A DNA stretch of 64,000 nucleotides. It comes from Acidobacteriota bacterium (GTDB taxonomy: Bacteria > Acidobacteriota > Terriglobia > Acidiferrales > UBA7541). Shown here piece by piece: positions 25,319-33,762 of this stretch (its first letter is position 1; every line of letters begins with the position of its first letter). The notes under the pieces are model-generated. The model ran no database searches. It was not told the DNA's origin and saw nothing but the letters and a program-made list of their open reading frames with translations. The stretch is taken from assembly GCA_003225295.1 (NCBI GenBank), contig QHYZ01000052.1, positions 62,001 to 126,000 on the forward strand, written 5' to 3'. The position numbers and the translations under genes are program-made.

Positions 25319-25768
25319 TTACTCGAGGGATTCCGGCTCAAGGGTCAAAACCCCCTCACCGGAGGCCTTCTTTTCCCAATACTTGCCCACCCAAGCCTCC
25401 CAGCTCTTTCCCGCGGCCGTGTCTCGGCCAGTGAAGGCAAGTGCCGCTATTTCGGCGTAGGAGATCTTCAACTTTTGGTTGGAATCTTTGGGCAGAACGC
25501 GCACAAAACTGGTTGTAAGAGACGACCCGGTCGTCCGATCGAACAGGTAACCTTCGATTCTTGAATTGTCTTTAAGAGTTAGCGTCACATCACCGCGATA
25601 GTCGAAGGCTTTCTCGAGAGCCACGCGCAACTCTTCTTCCGTGGCCAGCTTGGGCACCCACCCTTGGACGCTTTCATGAACGGTGCCGGGAGCCACTTCC
25701 AGCGTGTCGGGGTTTAGCGGAGAACCTTCCGTGTGGCTGGGCCGGTCTGCGTGGCGCGGACCCGTCAC
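25319..25768 (-). CDS. HpnH-linked protein with Sm-like core
   Basis: 149 residues from a GTG that overlaps the hpnH stop by 4 bp (GTGA), so the two are translationally coupled. After a 45-residue polar lead, residues about 45-120 read LRVALEKAFDYRGDVTLTLKDNSRIEGYLFDR...FVRVLPKDSNQKLKISYAEIAALAFTGRD. The spacing of RGDVTLTLKDNSRIEGYLF and ISYAEIAALAF resembles the Sm1/Sm2 motifs of an LSm/Hfq-like beta-barrel. The tail is SWEAWVGKYWEKKASGEGVL. No catalytic motif. Function unknown; coupling to hpnH suggests a supporting role in hopanoid synthesis or its control. Confidence 0.7.
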   Translation of the reverse strand: MTGPRHADRPSHTEGSPLNPDTLEVAPGTVHESVQGWVPKLATEEELRVALEKAFDYRGDVTLTLKDNSRIEGYLFDRTTGSSLTTSFVRVLPKDSNQKLKISYAEIAALAFTGRDTAAGKSWEAWVGKYWEKKASGEGVLTLEPESLE

Positions 25769-26892
25769 GCGCGGGTCTCCTCAAGCTGGCTCTTGTCCGC
25801 TTGGATTTGCACCAGAGGGTTATAGGAATGCACCGGCTTAGCCGGTTCATTCAGCATCGCGAGGGCGTCCGAATCTTTGTATTTTGTGGACAACTCAGCC
25901 TTTACGGTCGCCCACAATCCAGCCAAGCCGCTGAAGGTATGATCCACAGCGGAAGCTTCATATCCGCTATGCACCATGCAGTTCGCGCACTTGGGATTGC
26001 CAGACTCCGTGCCGTAGTTCTTCCACTCGGTGGCCTTGAGCAGTTCTTGGAACGTTTCCACGTAGCCGTCCTGCAGCAAGTAGCAGGGCTTTTGCCAGCC
26101 GAAGATATTGTAGGTCGGCATGCCCCACGGCGTGCAGGCATAGGTTCGCTTGCCCATCAGAAATTCGAGGAACAGCTTTGATTGGTTGAACTGCCAGGTC
26201 GCCTTCCTATTCGACAAAATGGCCCGGAACAAGCGCCGCGTGCGTGCCCGCCCGAGGAAGTGCTTTTGGTCGGGTGCCTTGTCGTAGGAATAGCCGGGAG
26301 AGAGCATCATGCCTTCGACGCCCAGCTCCATCATTTCGTCAAAAAACGCGCGGACGCTCTTGGGATCGGCGCCATCGAACAACGTGGTATTGGTTGTAAC
26401 GCGGAAGCCCTGTTTCACCGCTTCCCTGATTCCTTCGATGGCCAGATCGTAGCCACCCTCGCGGCAAACGGAAAAATCGTGATGCTCTTTCTGCCCATCC
26501 ACGTGCACCGAGAACGTCAGGTATTTGCTGGGCTTGAAAAGAGCAAGCTTTTCTTTGAGCAGCAGCGCGTTGGTGCAGAGATAGATGTACTTCTTGCGCG
26601 CCACCAGCCCCTCGACGATTTTCTCGATCTGCGGGTGCATCAGGGGCTCGCCGCCGGGAATCGAAACCATCGGCGTGCCGCACTCGTCCACGGCCTGGAA
26701 GCATTCTTCCGGGCTCAATTCCGTTTTCAAAATGTGCGCGGGATATTGGATTTTACCGCATCCCGCGCATGCCAGATTGCAGCGGAACAGCGGCTCCAGC
26801 ATCAGCACGAACGGGTAGCGCTTCTGTCCCCGCAGCTTTTGCTTCAGGACGTAGGTTGCCACCGTCCACATTTGTGAAATCGGTACCGGCAT
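25765..26892 (-). CDS. hpnH: Adenosyl-hopene transferase HpnH (radical SAM)
   Basis: 375 residues. Attaches the adenosyl moiety of SAM to diploptene, the first step of side-chain extension for bacteriohopanepolyols, on the inner membrane. Radical-SAM cluster CNLACAGC (Cys38, 42, 45), GGEPLMHPQIEKIVEGL, LCTNALLLKEKL, TFSVHVDGQKEHHD and a C-terminal Cys cluster GNPKCANCMVHSGYEASAVDH. The opening MPVPISQMWTVATYVLKQKLRGQKRYPFVLMLEPL is typical of HpnH. No squalene-hopene cyclase or other hpn gene is in the window. Divergent, across a 281-bp gap, from the ligase-ACP-acyltransferase fusion. Confidence 0.93.
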   Translation of the reverse strand: MPVPISQMWTVATYVLKQKLRGQKRYPFVLMLEPLFRCNLACAGCGKIQYPAHILKTELSPEECFQAVDECGTPMVSIPGGEPLMHPQIEKIVEGLVARKKYIYLCTNALLLKEKLALFKPSKYLTFSVHVDGQKEHHDFSVCREGGYDLAIEGIREAVKQGFRVTTNTTLFDGADPKSVRAFFDEMMELGVEGMMLSPGYSYDKAPDQKHFLGRARTRRLFRAILSNRKATWQFNQSKLFLEFLMGKRTYACTPWGMPTYNIFGWQKPCYLLQDGYVETFQELLKATEWKNYGTESGNPKCANCMVHSGYEASAVDHTFSGLAGLWATVKAELSTKYKDSDALAMLNEPAKPVHSYNPLVQIQADKSQLEETRA

Positions 26893-27173: not shown

Positions 27174-29741
27174 ATGCCCCGAAAAAATCTCCTGAGTCTT
27201 TTCTCGGACTTGGCCCGCTTTGGTGGCGACGTTGCTGTCATCCAAAGACGCGGCTACCGACGGGAAAAGCTGACGTATAAGGAGCTTTACGCCTCCGCCC
27301 TTTTCTGGAGTCATGCGCTCGCTGGACGGAGCGTGGTCCCCGGTGATCGCGTCCTTCTCTGGGGTCCCAATTCTGCCGAGTGGGTCGCTTGCTTTTGGGG
27401 CGTTCTATTGCGAGGCGCCGTGGTCGTGCCGATGGACTCCCGAGCATCTTCCGATTTCGTCCAACGTGCGATCAAGGATGCAGGCGTGAAGCTCATCTTG
27501 CGTGACCGCCAACAGGGGGAGCTGCCTGGCGCGCCACCGTCGATGATCATCAACGATTTCATGGAGATGGTGGACGGCCTTGCCCCTCCGGCAGATGCCG
27601 GCGTGGGTGCCGGTGCTGGTCCCGCAAGAACCACCATTGCCGAAATCCTGTACACCTCGGGCACAACCGCCGAGCCCCGCGGCGTCGTTCTCACCCACGG
27701 CAATTTTCTGGCAAATCTCGAGCCGCTGGAGCGTGGCCTCGATGAGTATCGCAAATACGAGCGCTGGTTTCACCCTGTGCGCTTCGTTACGCTCGTTCCC
27801 TTGAGCCATGTCTTCGGCCAATTCATGGCTTTGTTTGTTCCGCCGCTCCTCGGCGCCGCGGTAGTTTTCGAATCGTCCAGCAATCCCGCCGAAATCATTC
27901 GCACCATAAAGCAAGAGCGCGCCACCGCGCTCATCGCCGTTCCGCGCATGCTTGATCTTCTGCATGCGGGAATCGAGAGAGAATTCGACGGTCCGAGCAA
28001 ATCACAGTGGCTGAAGCGCACCTTGGAATACGCAAGAGGCAGGAAATTTCTCACCCGCGCTTGGGCGTTTCGCCGAATACACCGCCGCTTTGGCTGGAAG
28101 TTTTGGGCTTTTATCTCCGGTGGTGCAGCGCTTGTGAATGAAACCGAGGACTTTTTCAAGCGTCTGGGCTATGCCGTCGTGCAAGGCTATGGCATGACGG
28201 AGACGGCATCTTTGATCAGCCTGAATCACCCGTTTCGCGCGACGGAAGGATTTGTCGGCAAAATTCTTCCCGGCCGTGAATGCCAGCTCTCCGAAGACGG
28301 TGAAATCCTCGTCCGTGGGGAAAATGTTTCCGGCGGCTACTGGGAACAAGGGACCGTCCGGCCCCTGGGTGACCAAGGCTGGCTGCGTACCGGCGACCTT
28401 GGCGAACTCGACGCCCAAGGTAATCTGCGCTTCCGGGGACGCAAGAAGAACGTGATCGTCACGCCCGCCGGTCTCAACGTCTATCCCGAGGACCTCGAAG
28501 CTGCCCTTCGCCAACACCCCGCGGTCAGAGATTGCGCGGTCATTCCGTTCGGACCAGGCGGCGCCGAACCTTGCGCGGTCTTGCTGATGATGGAATCAGG
28601 AGATCATGCGGCGCGAACCGCCGTCGCGGGCGGGAACGCATCGCTCGCGGAGTATCAGCAGATCCACAAATGGCTGGTCTGGCCCGACCTTGATTTTCCC
28701 CGTACACCCACTGGCAAACCGCGGCTTTCCGTCATCGCCTCCCGCGCCGCCCAAATCCTCGATGGGCGACCGGGAAGTGTTCCTGAAAGTGTTGTGGCGG
28801 AGTTCCGTCCGTCCTCCGCGCTCGACCAACTGCTCGAACACTTCAGCACATCGAGAGGTGCAGGCTCGCGAGTAAACCGTGAGCACGATGAGGAACTGAA
28901 CCTCTCCTCCCTGGACCGCGTGGAACTCCTGAGCGCCCTGGAGGAAAGGTTTCACGTGGAACTCAACGAAACCGTTTTTGCCAATGCCAAAACCGTGGCC
29001 GATGTCGAGCTTGTCCTCGAACAGCCAGCGGCTCGCCGCACGGCCTACAGCTATCCTCGCTGGACGCAGCGCGAACCGATTTGCTGGCTGCGGCTGGCGG
29101 TCTACTACGCGCTCGTCTGGCCCGCGACACAGATCCTGGGACACCCGCGCATCGTGGGCCGCGAGAATCTGCGCAGCCTGCCTGGGCCCGTCCTTATCGT
29201 TTCCAACCACATCACGCGCCGCGCCGATATAGGGTTGATTCTTGTCGCCTTGCCGCCGCGATTCCGCCACCGCCTGGCCACGGCCATGGGCGGCGAATCA
29301 TTGCAAAACATGCGCTGCCCGCCGCGGGATTGGTTCTTCGCCAAGCGCTGGGCCCATCAACTCGGCTACTGGCTGACCACCTTGCTCTTCAACGTTTTTC
29401 CGCTGCCGCAGTTTTCCGGCTTTCGCGAAAGCTTCCGCTTCGCCGGCGAATCCGTCGACCGCCACTACAGCGTGCTGGTCTTTCCCGAAGGCGCAGTAAA
29501 CCACTCCAGCACCGGCGAGACGGCCCCGTTTCAATCCGGCATCGGCCTGCTCGCAGAGAATCTGCGCATCCCCGTGGTTCCCATGCGACTCGATGGCGTC
29601 TGGCAGATGAAGCGCGAACATCGCCGCCTCGCGCATTTCGGCGAAGTCACCGTGCGGATCGGTGCGCCCGTCACCTTTCCGCCCGGCATGTCCCCCGACG
29701 AAATCGCCGGGCGCCTGGAATCCGCCGTCGGTTCTCTGTAG
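27174..29741 (+). CDS. Acyl-AMP ligase / ACP / lysophospholipid acyltransferase fusion
   Basis: 855 residues with three domains. Residues about 1-535: adenylate-forming ligase (ILYTSGTTAEPRGVVLTHGN, QGYGMTETASLISLN, GWLRTGDLGELDAQGNLRFRGRKKN, and the Lys of PRTPTGKPRLS). About 555-625: an acyl-carrier-like domain with LNLSSLDRVELLSALEERF, Ser near 578 being a plausible phosphopantetheine site. About 655-850: PlsC-type acyltransferase with VSNHITRRADIGL near 677 and VFPEGAVNHSS near 771. It could activate a free fatty acid, hold it on its own carrier and pass it to a lysolipid, as E. coli Aas does in two domains. Odd: the catalytic motif is H-x5-D instead of the usual H-x4-D. Stands alone, divergent from hpnH. 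Confidence 0.88.
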   Translation: MPRKNLLSLFSDLARFGGDVAVIQRRGYRREKLTYKELYASALFWSHALAGRSVVPGDRVLLWGPNSAEWVACFWGVLLRGAVVVPMDSRASSDFVQRAIKDAGVKLILRDRQQGELPGAPPSMIINDFMEMVDGLAPPADAGVGAGAGPARTTIAEILYTSGTTAEPRGVVLTHGNFLANLEPLERGLDEYRKYERWFHPVRFVTLVPLSHVFGQFMALFVPPLLGAAVVFESSSNPAEIIRTIKQERATALIAVPRMLDLLHAGIEREFDGPSKSQWLKRTLEYARGRKFLTRAWAFRRIHRRFGWKFWAFISGGAALVNETEDFFKRLGYAVVQGYGMTETASLISLNHPFRATEGFVGKILPGRECQLSEDGEILVRGENVSGGYWEQGTVRPLGDQGWLRTGDLGELDAQGNLRFRGRKKNVIVTPAGLNVYPEDLEAALRQHPAVRDCAVIPFGPGGAEPCAVLLMMESGDHAARTAVAGGNASLAEYQQIHKWLVWPDLDFPRTPTGKPRLSVIASRAAQILDGRPGSVPESVVAEFRPSSALDQLLEHFSTSRGAGSRVNREHDEELNLSSLDRVELLSALEERFHVELNETVFANAKTVADVELVLEQPAARRTAYSYPRWTQREPICWLRLAVYYALVWPATQILGHPRIVGRENLRSLPGPVLIVSNHITRRADIGLILVALPPRFRHRLATAMGGESLQNMRCPPRDWFFAKRWAHQLGYWLTTLLFNVFPLPQFSGFRESFRFAGESVDRHYSVLVFPEGAVNHSSTGETAPFQSGIGLLAENLRIPVVPMRLDGVWQMKREHRRLAHFGEVTVRIGAPVTFPPGMSPDEIAGRLESAVGSL

Positions 29742-31188: not shown

Positions 31189-33762
31189 ATGGCCCACCGT
31201 ACAACCCTGGAAGAACAGCGCCCCACAAACAAGCCGAAGGCGGCCAAGAAACCGGCGGCGGGCGGTCTCGCGAAAGCAGCCAGCCACGAAGATCGCGAGT
31301 CCGTATTCGATGCTTTCCGCCGCTGGGGCTACCTGGAAGCGACTCTCGATCCCCTTGGCTTGTTTGAGCCGGTGAAGCACGCTGACCTGGATGCCCTGAC
31401 CGGCGAAGCCGCCGCGGAAGCCCGCGGCATTTACTGTAATACGGTCGGCGCCGATTTCATGCATTTGCCGGAGCCGGAACGCCGCCGCTGGATCGCCGAG
31501 CGACTCGAAGCCCGGTCGAGCCAAATTGATCAACATAAAATCCTCGAGCGTTTGGTTCGCGCCGATCTTTTCGAACAGGTTTTGCAGGCGCGCTATCTCG
31601 GCACCAAGCGCTTTTCTCTGGAAGGTGTCACGGCGCTGATTCCCTTGCTTGATTCCATCCTGGACACTGCCGGCGAACATGGTGCGGTCGAATCCGTCAT
31701 GGCCATGAGTCACCGCGGGCGCCTGAACGTAATGGTCCACGCGGCCTGCAAAACGCCACATGAAGTGGTTGCCGGCTTTGAAGACGTCGATCCTCGCAGC
31801 GTCCTCGGCGCGGGCGACGTGAAATACCATGTGGGCGCGACGGGCAGCTACGTCACCAGCGCCGGCAAAAAGATCGGCATCCATCTGGTTTCCAATCCCA
31901 GCCACTTGGAGGCTGTCGATCCGGTCGCCGTGGGCCGAGTGCGCGCCAAGCAAACGCGCTACGGTTTGCGCGGCCCCTACGTCGACCGTTCACCGGAAAC
32001 GTTGAATAAAGTCGTCCCCATCGTGATGCACGGCGACGCAGCTTTCGCGGGGCAAGGCATCTGGGCGGAAACGCTGAATCTCGCGGATCTGAAGGCTTAC
32101 ACCGTGGGCGGCACAATTCACATCATCGTGAACAACCTGATCGGCTTTACGACCAAGCCTACCGAGGAGCATTCTTCGCGCTTCGCTTCCGATATCGCCA
32201 AGCGCCAATCCGTGCCGATCTTCCACGTCAACGCCGAAGACCCAGACGCTGTCGTGCGCATTGGAAAACTTGCCGCGGAATATCGCGCCACCTTTGGCAA
32301 CGACGTGGTCGTGGACCTCATCGGTTACCGCCGCCACGGCCACAGCGAAGTCGACGATCCGACCATCACTCAGCCGCTCCTGTACGCGCGGATCAAGAAT
32401 CATGCTGCGCTCTGGAAAATATACGCCGAGCGCATCGGCCTGGACTCGTCCCTGATGGTTGAAGCCGTCCGCAAGGAATACGAGGAGGAGCAGACCAAGG
32501 CCCGCGCGCTAAGAAAAACACCGCACCTGCGCAAACTGCCGGACTATTGGGCACCGTATCAGCATGGTCGCTACAAACCCGAATATGAGGTCGATACCGG
32601 CCTCACGACTGAGAAACTTCGGGAGATCACCGACGGGCTGGTTCGCGTGCCTGAGAGTTTTCATATTCACCCTAAAATCGCGAAGCTTCTCGAACAGCGC
32701 GCGGAAATGGGCCACGGCAAGCGTGCCGTCGATTATGGCTTCGCCGAAACGTTGGCCTTTGGCTCCGTGCTCCTCGAGGGGCATCCCGTGCGCCTCACGG
32801 GACAGGACACCCAGCGCGGCACTTTCAACCAGCGCCACGCGGTTTTGATCGACACGCAAACCGAGCACAACTACCTCACTCTCGCGCATCTTTCCAAGCA
32901 ACAGGCTTTCTGCGAGATTCACAACTCTTCTCTTTCCGAGGCCGGTTGCCTGGGGTTCGAGTACGGATTCAGCCGCGACTATCCTGAGGCGCTCGTTTTG
33001 TGGGAAGCGCAGTTCGGTGATTTCGCCAACGGCGCACAGGTCATCATCGACCAGTTTATCAGCGCCGGTGAAGATAAATGGAATTTACCGGCCGGGCTGG
33101 TGATGCTTCTACCGCACGGCTACGAAGGCCAGGGCCCGGAACATTCCAGTGCGCGGCTGGAGCGCTTCATGCAGCTCGCTGCGGAAGACAATATGCAGAT
33201 TTGCCAGCCCTCGACGGCCGCACAATACTTCCACATGCTGCGCCGGCAGGCGTGCCGTCCGTGGCGCAAACCGCTTATCGTCTTCACCCCGAAGAGCATG
33301 CTGCGCCATCCCGACGCCAGCTCGAACATCCAGGAATTTACCAAACCGCGCTTCCTGCCGCTGGTTCCTGATCGCGAAGTGCTGGACGCCCGACGCATCT
33401 TGATGGCCAGCGGAAAAGTCGGGCATGAGTTGCGCGCCGAGCGTCGCCGCCGCAAAGACACGAATACCGCCATTTTCTTTCTGGATCAACTGTACCCGCT
33501 GCCGCGCACGGAAATTGCCGCGGCTATCGCCGAGCATCCCCAAGCGCGCGAGATGGTGTGGGTTCAGGAAGAACCCGGTAACATGGGCGCGGCAGGTTAC
33601 GTCGTGCCGCGGTGCGAACGGCTCGCGAAGGCCAGAGGGCTCACGTTTCGCTCGATCAAGCGTTCCGCCAGCGCCAGCCCGGCCACCGGCTCGGCCAAGG
33701 CCCATGAATTGGAGCAAAAGACGCTCCTCGCGCTGGCCTTTACAACTTCAAGCAGCGGTTAG
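31189..33762 (+). CDS. sucA: 2-oxoglutarate dehydrogenase E1 component
   Basis: 857 residues. Thiamine-diphosphate-dependent decarboxylation of 2-oxoglutarate in the TCA cycle. Motifs: AMSHRGRLNVMVHA, KYHVGATGSY, LVSNPSHLEAVDPVAVGRVRAKQ, MHGDAAFAGQGIWAETLNLADLKAYTVGGTIHIIVNN, GFTTKPTEEHSSRFASDIAK (ThDP-binding region), YRRHGHSEVDDPTITQPLLY, TGQDTQRGTFNQRHAVL, and the C-terminal MVWVQEEPGNMGAAGYV. The N-terminal 35 residues are Lys/Ala/Pro-rich and replace the E2-binding helix seen in longer (about 930-residue) relatives. No sucB or lpd follows; the other subunits must lie elsewhere. Confidence 0.95.
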   Translation: MAHRTTLEEQRPTNKPKAAKKPAAGGLAKAASHEDRESVFDAFRRWGYLEATLDPLGLFEPVKHADLDALTGEAAAEARGIYCNTVGADFMHLPEPERRRWIAERLEARSSQIDQHKILERLVRADLFEQVLQARYLGTKRFSLEGVTALIPLLDSILDTAGEHGAVESVMAMSHRGRLNVMVHAACKTPHEVVAGFEDVDPRSVLGAGDVKYHVGATGSYVTSAGKKIGIHLVSNPSHLEAVDPVAVGRVRAKQTRYGLRGPYVDRSPETLNKVVPIVMHGDAAFAGQGIWAETLNLADLKAYTVGGTIHIIVNNLIGFTTKPTEEHSSRFASDIAKRQSVPIFHVNAEDPDAVVRIGKLAAEYRATFGNDVVVDLIGYRRHGHSEVDDPTITQPLLYARIKNHAALWKIYAERIGLDSSLMVEAVRKEYEEEQTKARALRKTPHLRKLPDYWAPYQHGRYKPEYEVDTGLTTEKLREITDGLVRVPESFHIHPKIAKLLEQRAEMGHGKRAVDYGFAETLAFGSVLLEGHPVRLTGQDTQRGTFNQRHAVLIDTQTEHNYLTLAHLSKQQAFCEIHNSSLSEAGCLGFEYGFSRDYPEALVLWEAQFGDFANGAQVIIDQFISAGEDKWNLPAGLVMLLPHGYEGQGPEHSSARLERFMQLAAEDNMQICQPSTAAQYFHMLRRQACRPWRKPLIVFTPKSMLRHPDASSNIQEFTKPRFLPLVPDREVLDARRILMASGKVGHELRAERRRRKDTNTAIFFLDQLYPLPRTEIAAAIAEHPQAREMVWVQEEPGNMGAAGYVVPRCERLAKARGLTFRSIKRSASASPATGSAKAHELEQKTLLALAFTTSSSG

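Follow-up and report, generated by a model that had tools for sequence, protein, structure and literature searches.

We found that the widened His-Asp spacing in an acidobacterial fatty acid ligase–carrier–PlsC fusion protein is real and lineage-fixed: it is a variant of a known enzyme kind with a domain layout that is usual in Acidobacteriota. The protein is encoded in a stretch of 64,000 nucleotides (the window) and is best explained, with a probability of about 70%, as a self-loading lysolipid O-acyltransferase. The spacing, together with a companion loop, provides a modest, testable lead. The gene and its parts are located as follows.

27174..29741, + strand: ligase–ACP–PlsC gene of the H-x5-D clade, 855 aa (ORF list, Pfam)
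27210..28343, + strand: AMP-binding (adenylation) domain, residues 13–390 (Pfam E 2.5e-62)
28893..29006, + strand: acyl carrier (PP-binding) domain, residues 574–611 (Pfam 24.6 bits, cut-off 20.8)
28908..28910, + strand: codon of S579, the predicted phosphopantetheine site (invariant, 47 sequences)
29148..29588, + strand: PlsC acyltransferase domain, PF01553, residues 659–805 (Pfam 37 bits, cut-off 23)
29205..29228, + strand: motif I NHITRRAD, N678–D685, H679-x5-D685 (alignments)
29481..29498, + strand: motif III FPEGAV, with V775 at the position of TmPlsC R159 (alignment to 5KYM)

The domain order adenylation, carrier, PlsC that the original prediction had read from the sequence is borne out by three Pfam domains above their cut-offs, with the active-site residues conserved in all three. 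These were the only Pfam families found in the 855 residues, and no reductase domain was among them. The C-terminal lid of the adenylation domain extends to about residue 520 and includes the conserved K515. When 47 full-length sequences were aligned, T161–T165, G338–G340, T342–T344, T406–D408, R423 and K515, which we take to be adenylation motifs, were invariant, as were S579 (the carrier serine previously placed near residue 578) and N678, H679, D685, E772 and G773 of PlsC. Both the profile score and the predicted PlsC fold place the C-terminal part in the PlsC/PF01553 superfamily. Its motif I departs from the H-x4-D spacing of that superfamily, but H-x5-D is accepted in published PF01553 members and the spacing is therefore no bar to membership. 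The EGTR arginine characteristic of PlsC enzymes that are LPA acyltransferases (R159 of TmPlsC) is replaced by V775.

Could the wider spacing be chance or a sequencing slip? It is neither. H679 and D685 are separated by five residues, one more than normal as had been claimed, and the added residue is R682 or R683 (codons CGC CGC). The close homologs, rather than all carrying H-x4-D, share the extra residue, whereas the more distant ones have H-x4-D. The first alignment of 88 rows, including the window, held 28 H-x5-D and 60 H-x4-D rows (L125, whose Asp is unread, sits among the latter). With duplicates merged and later loci added, the 127 distinct sequences comprised 32 H-x5-D, 93 H-x4-D and 2 unreadable ones (L125, L147). 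The later batch of loci was H-x4-D in 20 of 20 cases. Seven of eight loci taken from genomes to read their spacing reach the motif, five with H-x5-D and two with H-x4-D, and 20 loci sampled outside the genus, in the family or phylum, yielded 19 H-x4-D and one H-x5-D, the last from the same record as L066 (NHVTRRSDIG), the single H-x5-D sequence outside the genus.

An H-x5-D copy is present in 31 of the 36 genomes of the window's genus. Four have an H-x4-D copy alone (G001, G002, G019, G022), three have both (G018, G020, G031), and G016 has neither at E 1e-120. Because several of these genomes are incomplete, absences of copies are lower-grade evidence. G016, which is 86% complete, is also the sole genus genome without hpnH over the cut-off. 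The H-x5-D and H-x4-D enzymes, some of them within one genome, are about 50% identical.

The gene is flanked by two genes of known families.

25765..26892, − strand: hpnH, adenosyl-hopene transferase, divergent neighbor (TIGR03470 545.7 bits, cut-off 225)
31189..33762, + strand: 2-oxoglutarate dehydrogenase E1, downstream neighbor (NF006914 1026.6 bits, cut-off 764)

Furthermore, a 149 aa protein at 25319–25768 of the window (− strand), with no Pfam or NCBIfam match, adjoins hpnH in most genus genomes inspected. The divergent arrangement with hpnH had been noted correctly, and from it a role in membrane lipid or hopanoid tailoring had been suggested. We considered a hopanoid-tailoring acyltransferase that would partner HpnH. 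Linkage agrees with such a partnership in that 22 of the 24 H-x5-D loci with at least 1.2 kb of upstream sequence (L066 not counted) have hpnH on the opposite strand no more than 1 kb away, and the genome has a hopene cyclase, encoded on another contig (C366). However, 35 of the 36 genus genomes have an hpnH above the cut-off, compared with 31 that have the H-x5-D gene. In three of the genomes with only an H-x4-D copy (G002, G019, G022), hpnH directly adjoins the E1 gene and the gene of the H-x5-D locus is absent; the G001 contig stops short of this junction. Conversely, G005 and G006 keep the H-x5-D gene away from hpnH, G010, G007 and G009 have the two on different contigs, and the examined flanks of H-x4-D relatives outside the genus contained no hpnH. 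The conserved co-occurrence and linkage that would mark a hopanoid biosynthesis gene was thus not found across the 36 genomes: hpnH stays without the gene, and the gene stays where hpnH is elsewhere. Since the gene comes and goes independently of hpnH, the adjacency is no pointer to hopanoid work, which we consider a very improbable function. The E1 gene lies downstream of 24 of 27 H-x5-D loci; the exceptions (L001, L021, L046) have no more than 1.5 kb of downstream sequence, in which a peptidase-like gene is located.

How did the extra residue arise? Read from a tree with distant H-x4-D relatives as the outgroup, H-x5-D is the derived state. The H-x5-D clade of the genus has an SH-aLRT support of 100 in two trees and 100/100 in a third, on a stem of 0.37–0.41. 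The trees point to one or two origins. A quick tree of 100 rows needed two changes; keeping all 26 of its H-x5-D rows together raised the likelihood by 32.6, with a p-AU of 0.789. When kin of L066 were added, the starred branches of a 45-row mixture-model tree called for two origins, but a single origin was not rejected (p-AU 0.518). The H-x4-D motif in another genus of the family reads NHITRSDIG (L095, L203) or NHVTRADIG (L202), in each case with Arg at the corresponding position, and L095 and L202 lie near an E1 gene on the same strand, as in the window. The codons of L202 (ACG CGC GCG GAC) compared with those of the window (ACG CGC CGC GCC GAT) make it plausible that one Arg codon was gained by duplication. 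The trees do not join the L095, L202 and L203 rows to the H-x5-D clade. Genes from records titled Bacillota and Betaproteobacteria (L095, L060) group within the acidobacterial family, and the titles of these records are probably wrong.

Motif III provides a second point of departure. In the alignment to 5KYM, the second residue after Glu-Gly corresponds to R159, for which binding of the LPA phosphate has been proposed (PMC8319176). At this position, the 32 H-x5-D sequences have V (28), I (2), L (1) or T (1, L149), and none has a basic residue. The 79 close H-x4-D sequences (4 unread) have H (29), R (19), T (12), L (12), V (2) or Y (1), and the 14 distant ones (1 unread) have R (12) or L (1). 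An earlier 100-row count, which held one G022 sequence twice, had given a basic residue in 0 of 26 H-x5-D rows and R or H in 42 of 57 close H-x4-D rows read (4 unread). An exclusive tie between H-x5-D and the lost arginine, considered at that stage, was weakened by the recount on the 127 distinct sequences: the residue is non-basic in 27 of the 75 readable close H-x4-D sequences, among them L095 and L202 as well as L206 and L211, the nearest H-x4-D kin of L066. These sequences include the rows most like the state before the insertion. Consequently, loss of the basic residue does not need the wider spacing, and the link between the two is only suggestive. The combination hints at a new acceptor but is not diagnostic of one. 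The motif III loop separates the groups more sharply: 26 of the 31 readable H-x5-D sequences carry two additional residues there, compared with 0 of 74 readable close H-x4-D sequences.

Structure prediction places these changes in an otherwise normal PlsC fold. The model of the PlsC part, built with 54 sequences, has a mean pLDDT of 89.3, and the structure that it matches most closely is that of T. maritima PlsC, 5kym_A (Z 17.9, rmsd 3.1, 191 residues), followed by squash GPAT and human GPAT; Foldseek gave E 7.3e-7 for 5kym_B. The His lies in the loop after strand 53–56 and the Asp in the first turn of helix 63–71 (domain numbering), so that the added residue would sit in a loop. For the full-length model the mean pLDDT drops to 79.9; the linkers on either side of the carrier are poor, segments 532–548 and 559–572 near it fall below 50, and the model is therefore silent on how the carrier reaches the PlsC site.

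The dN/dS of the PlsC part was 0.087–0.147 in six pairs and 0.301 for the window versus L046, the closest pair, whose dS is only 0.058; the ligase part gave 0.102–0.153 and, for the window versus L046, 0.346. Judged by these ratios, the PlsC part is under purifying selection and is the least or nearly least changed part of the protein. Such constraint argues against a degenerate PlsC, in which case the protein would merely activate and carry fatty acids for another enzyme. The altered spacing and the missing basic residue in motif III are what one might expect of decay, but H679, D685, E772 and G773 are invariant and the fold is confidently predicted, leaving degeneration with only a slim chance.

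The function that we favor, self-loading acylation of a lysolipid, would proceed in three steps. The adenylation domain would convert a free fatty acid and ATP to acyl-AMP; the acyl group would then be passed to the phosphopantetheine arm on S579 of the protein's own carrier domain; and the H679/D685 dyad of PlsC would move the chain to a lysolipid hydroxyl, forming an ester. In the genus, this last step would occur at an altered site: a residue is added between His and Asp, the motif III loop is usually longer, and the EGTR-arginine position lacks a basic residue. Loading in cis, a fatty-acyl substrate and a lysolipid acceptor are the most likely meaning of the observed domain content, order and conservation. 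On the other hand, the product of the adenylation domain could be acyl-CoA instead of an acyl group on the protein's own carrier. The genes flanking the H-x5-D and H-x4-D loci name no substrate, and a search of open-licence papers returned neither biochemistry for the ligase–ACP–PlsC family nor literature on a fused carrier/PlsC/AMP-binding enzyme.

What might the extra residue do in a self-loading acyltransferase? It is possible that the spacing changes the geometry or the acceptor. It could also be a neutral loop change in an enzyme of plain fatty-acid salvage and lysophospholipid reacylation that resembles E. coli Aas but uses its own carrier. This is a sub-question within the best explanation, and we put the neutral answer at somewhat under an even chance. 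A published homology model of roseobacter SalA puts the His and Asp of its H-x5-D motif as in PlsC (PMC8319176), in keeping with neutrality, and so are the loop position of the added residue in our model and the 27 close H-x4-D sequences that also lack the basic residue. Neutrality sits less well with a spacing fixed over a fully supported clade on a long stem, with the longer motif III loop that accompanies it, with the H-x4-D copies kept alongside H-x5-D copies in three genomes, and with the window's own genome (G000) already having an LplT-Aas-type MFS–PlsC–ligase fusion.

The more far-reaching answer is that the genus copy is neofunctionalized and, in parallel to SalA, acylates a phosphate-free lysolipid at a PlsC site rebuilt by the added His-Asp residue, the longer motif III loop and the Val at the acceptor-arginine position. 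We regard this as unlikely. On this reading, some genomes retain the standard H-x4-D paralog alongside it. If true, new acceptors would have been reached repeatedly by combining H-x5-D with a lost motif III arginine. Co-occurrence did not single out an aminolipid acceptor: PF13444, presumably an OlsB-type domain, is present in G000 but in only 14 of 36 genus genomes compared with 31 of 36 for H-x5-D, and the two do not track each other.

The window protein is not the only PlsC-type enzyme of its cell. G000 has six PF01553 matches, namely a 265 aa frame, which could serve core phosphatidate synthesis, an 1148 aa MFS–PlsC–ligase, a 997 aa carrier–ligase–PlsC, two short frames of 279 aa and 233 aa, and the window protein, which in view of the others is probably accessory. 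The 1148 aa frame (L155 1037–4480, contig C168) is of the LplT-Aas type and has H-x4-D (NHVSMAD), and the 997 aa frame (L154 3020–6010, contig C197) has a carrier, a FAAL-like ligase (named by eye) and a PlsC, also with H-x4-D (YASNHTSYFD). More distant fusions (L141–L145; 27–29% identity) with LCPNHQSYLD or LCPNHESYLD and FPEGER occur in the genus and, beyond it, in the family and order, and they align along nearly the whole window protein. Matches at E 1e-120 were present in 78 of the 95 genomes from the order, or 49 of 52 when only good genomes are counted, and in 55 of the 247 genomes drawn from across the phylum, or 51 of the 220 good ones; these counts come from one query within Acidobacteriota, include some partial matches, and were taken without checking the domain order in each. 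The ligase–ACP–PlsC family is common in Acidobacteriota.

Neighbor clustering over 71 H-x4-D loci, a coarse procedure in which longest-ORF calling admits shadow ORFs, was used to look for a conserved partner of the H-x4-D family and gave only lineage-bound neighbors, in at most 14 of the 71 loci. The H-x4-D paralog of the genus (L112, L113, L126–L131) often has in its vicinity genes for a protoporphyrinogen oxidase, a small membrane protein and an unassigned radical SAM protein. None of the NCBIfam matches of the last, which include Tes and HpnH, comes close to its cut-off.

Taken together, the two forms provide a natural experiment, in which enzymes about half identical differ by one motif I residue and a neighboring loop. 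The role of the His-Asp spacing is also a question for SalA and the fungal GPATs, and self-loading ligase–ACP–acyltransferases prove to be common in a phylum of soil bacteria that is important for climate proxies because of its membrane lipids.

Among known systems, the best precedent for the proposed self-loading mechanism, by analogy, is myxobacterial ElbD. The Myxococcus xanthus protein is described as a reductase–ligase–ACP–acyltransferase with an AGPAT-like acyltransferase, for which ligase and ACP activities, but no acyltransferase activity, were seen in vitro (PMC9131029). ElbD and the window protein, likened here by description and not by sequence, have the same ligase–ACP–acyltransferase order in one chain, and the FAR1-like reductase domain is present in ElbD only. 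As ElbD already has the self-loading design, the architecture of the window protein is not new.

Could the window protein then be an ElbD-like enzyme of ether-lipid synthesis? Besides the shared order, reductase-less ElbD-like homologs are reported from other phyla (PMC9131029), and elbD matches are reported in 15 of 97 Black Sea acidobacterial MAGs (PMC11868695). Nevertheless, the 855 residues hold no reductase domain, and no elb-like cluster was seen for the window family, inspection by eye rather than a profile search having shown no epimerase or HAD set beside eight H-x4-D loci (L119–L124, L134, L136). In the available text of the Black Sea study, elb clusters are described only from some subdivision 4 genomes (PMC11868695), and Solibacter usitatus, an ether-lipid maker, is reported to be without ElbD (PMC10087280). 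We consider ether-lipid synthesis improbable.

E. coli Aas and the LplT-Aas fusions share with the window protein a ligase and a PlsC on one chain. The domain order of Aas differs, in that the ligase is not first and the PlsC not last. The window protein, on the other hand, has its carrier in the chain, starts with the ligase, ends with PlsC and lacks the MFS part of LplT-Aas, and it scores far below the cut-offs of the Aas models (PRK06814, 114.9 bits of 1349; PRK08633, 114.4 of 1221). Aas is reported to re-acylate 2-acyl-GPE using acyl-ACP (PMC4666226).

The spacing itself has two published counterparts. SalA of roseobacters is described as having H-x5-D and a Val for R159 and as needed for a sulfur-containing aminolipid (PMC8319176). 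The window protein resembles it, by that description rather than by sequence, in both the spacing and the lost R159 equivalent; unlike the window protein, SalA is not described in the available text as fused to a ligase or carrier. The fungal GPATs of the Sct1/Gpt2 type likewise have H-x5-D, with a motif III (FPEGGSHD) lacking the EGTR arginine, whereas the metazoan ER GPATs are reported to lack the arginine and yet keep H-x4-D (PMC4207751). The fungal enzymes use glycerol-3-phosphate or DHAP and, according to a survey, acyl-CoA (PMC7613133); they share H-x5-D with the window protein, and the available accounts describe no fused ligase or carrier for them. Both published H-x5-D groups are described as acyltransferases, and one of them acts on ordinary glycerol-3-phosphate.
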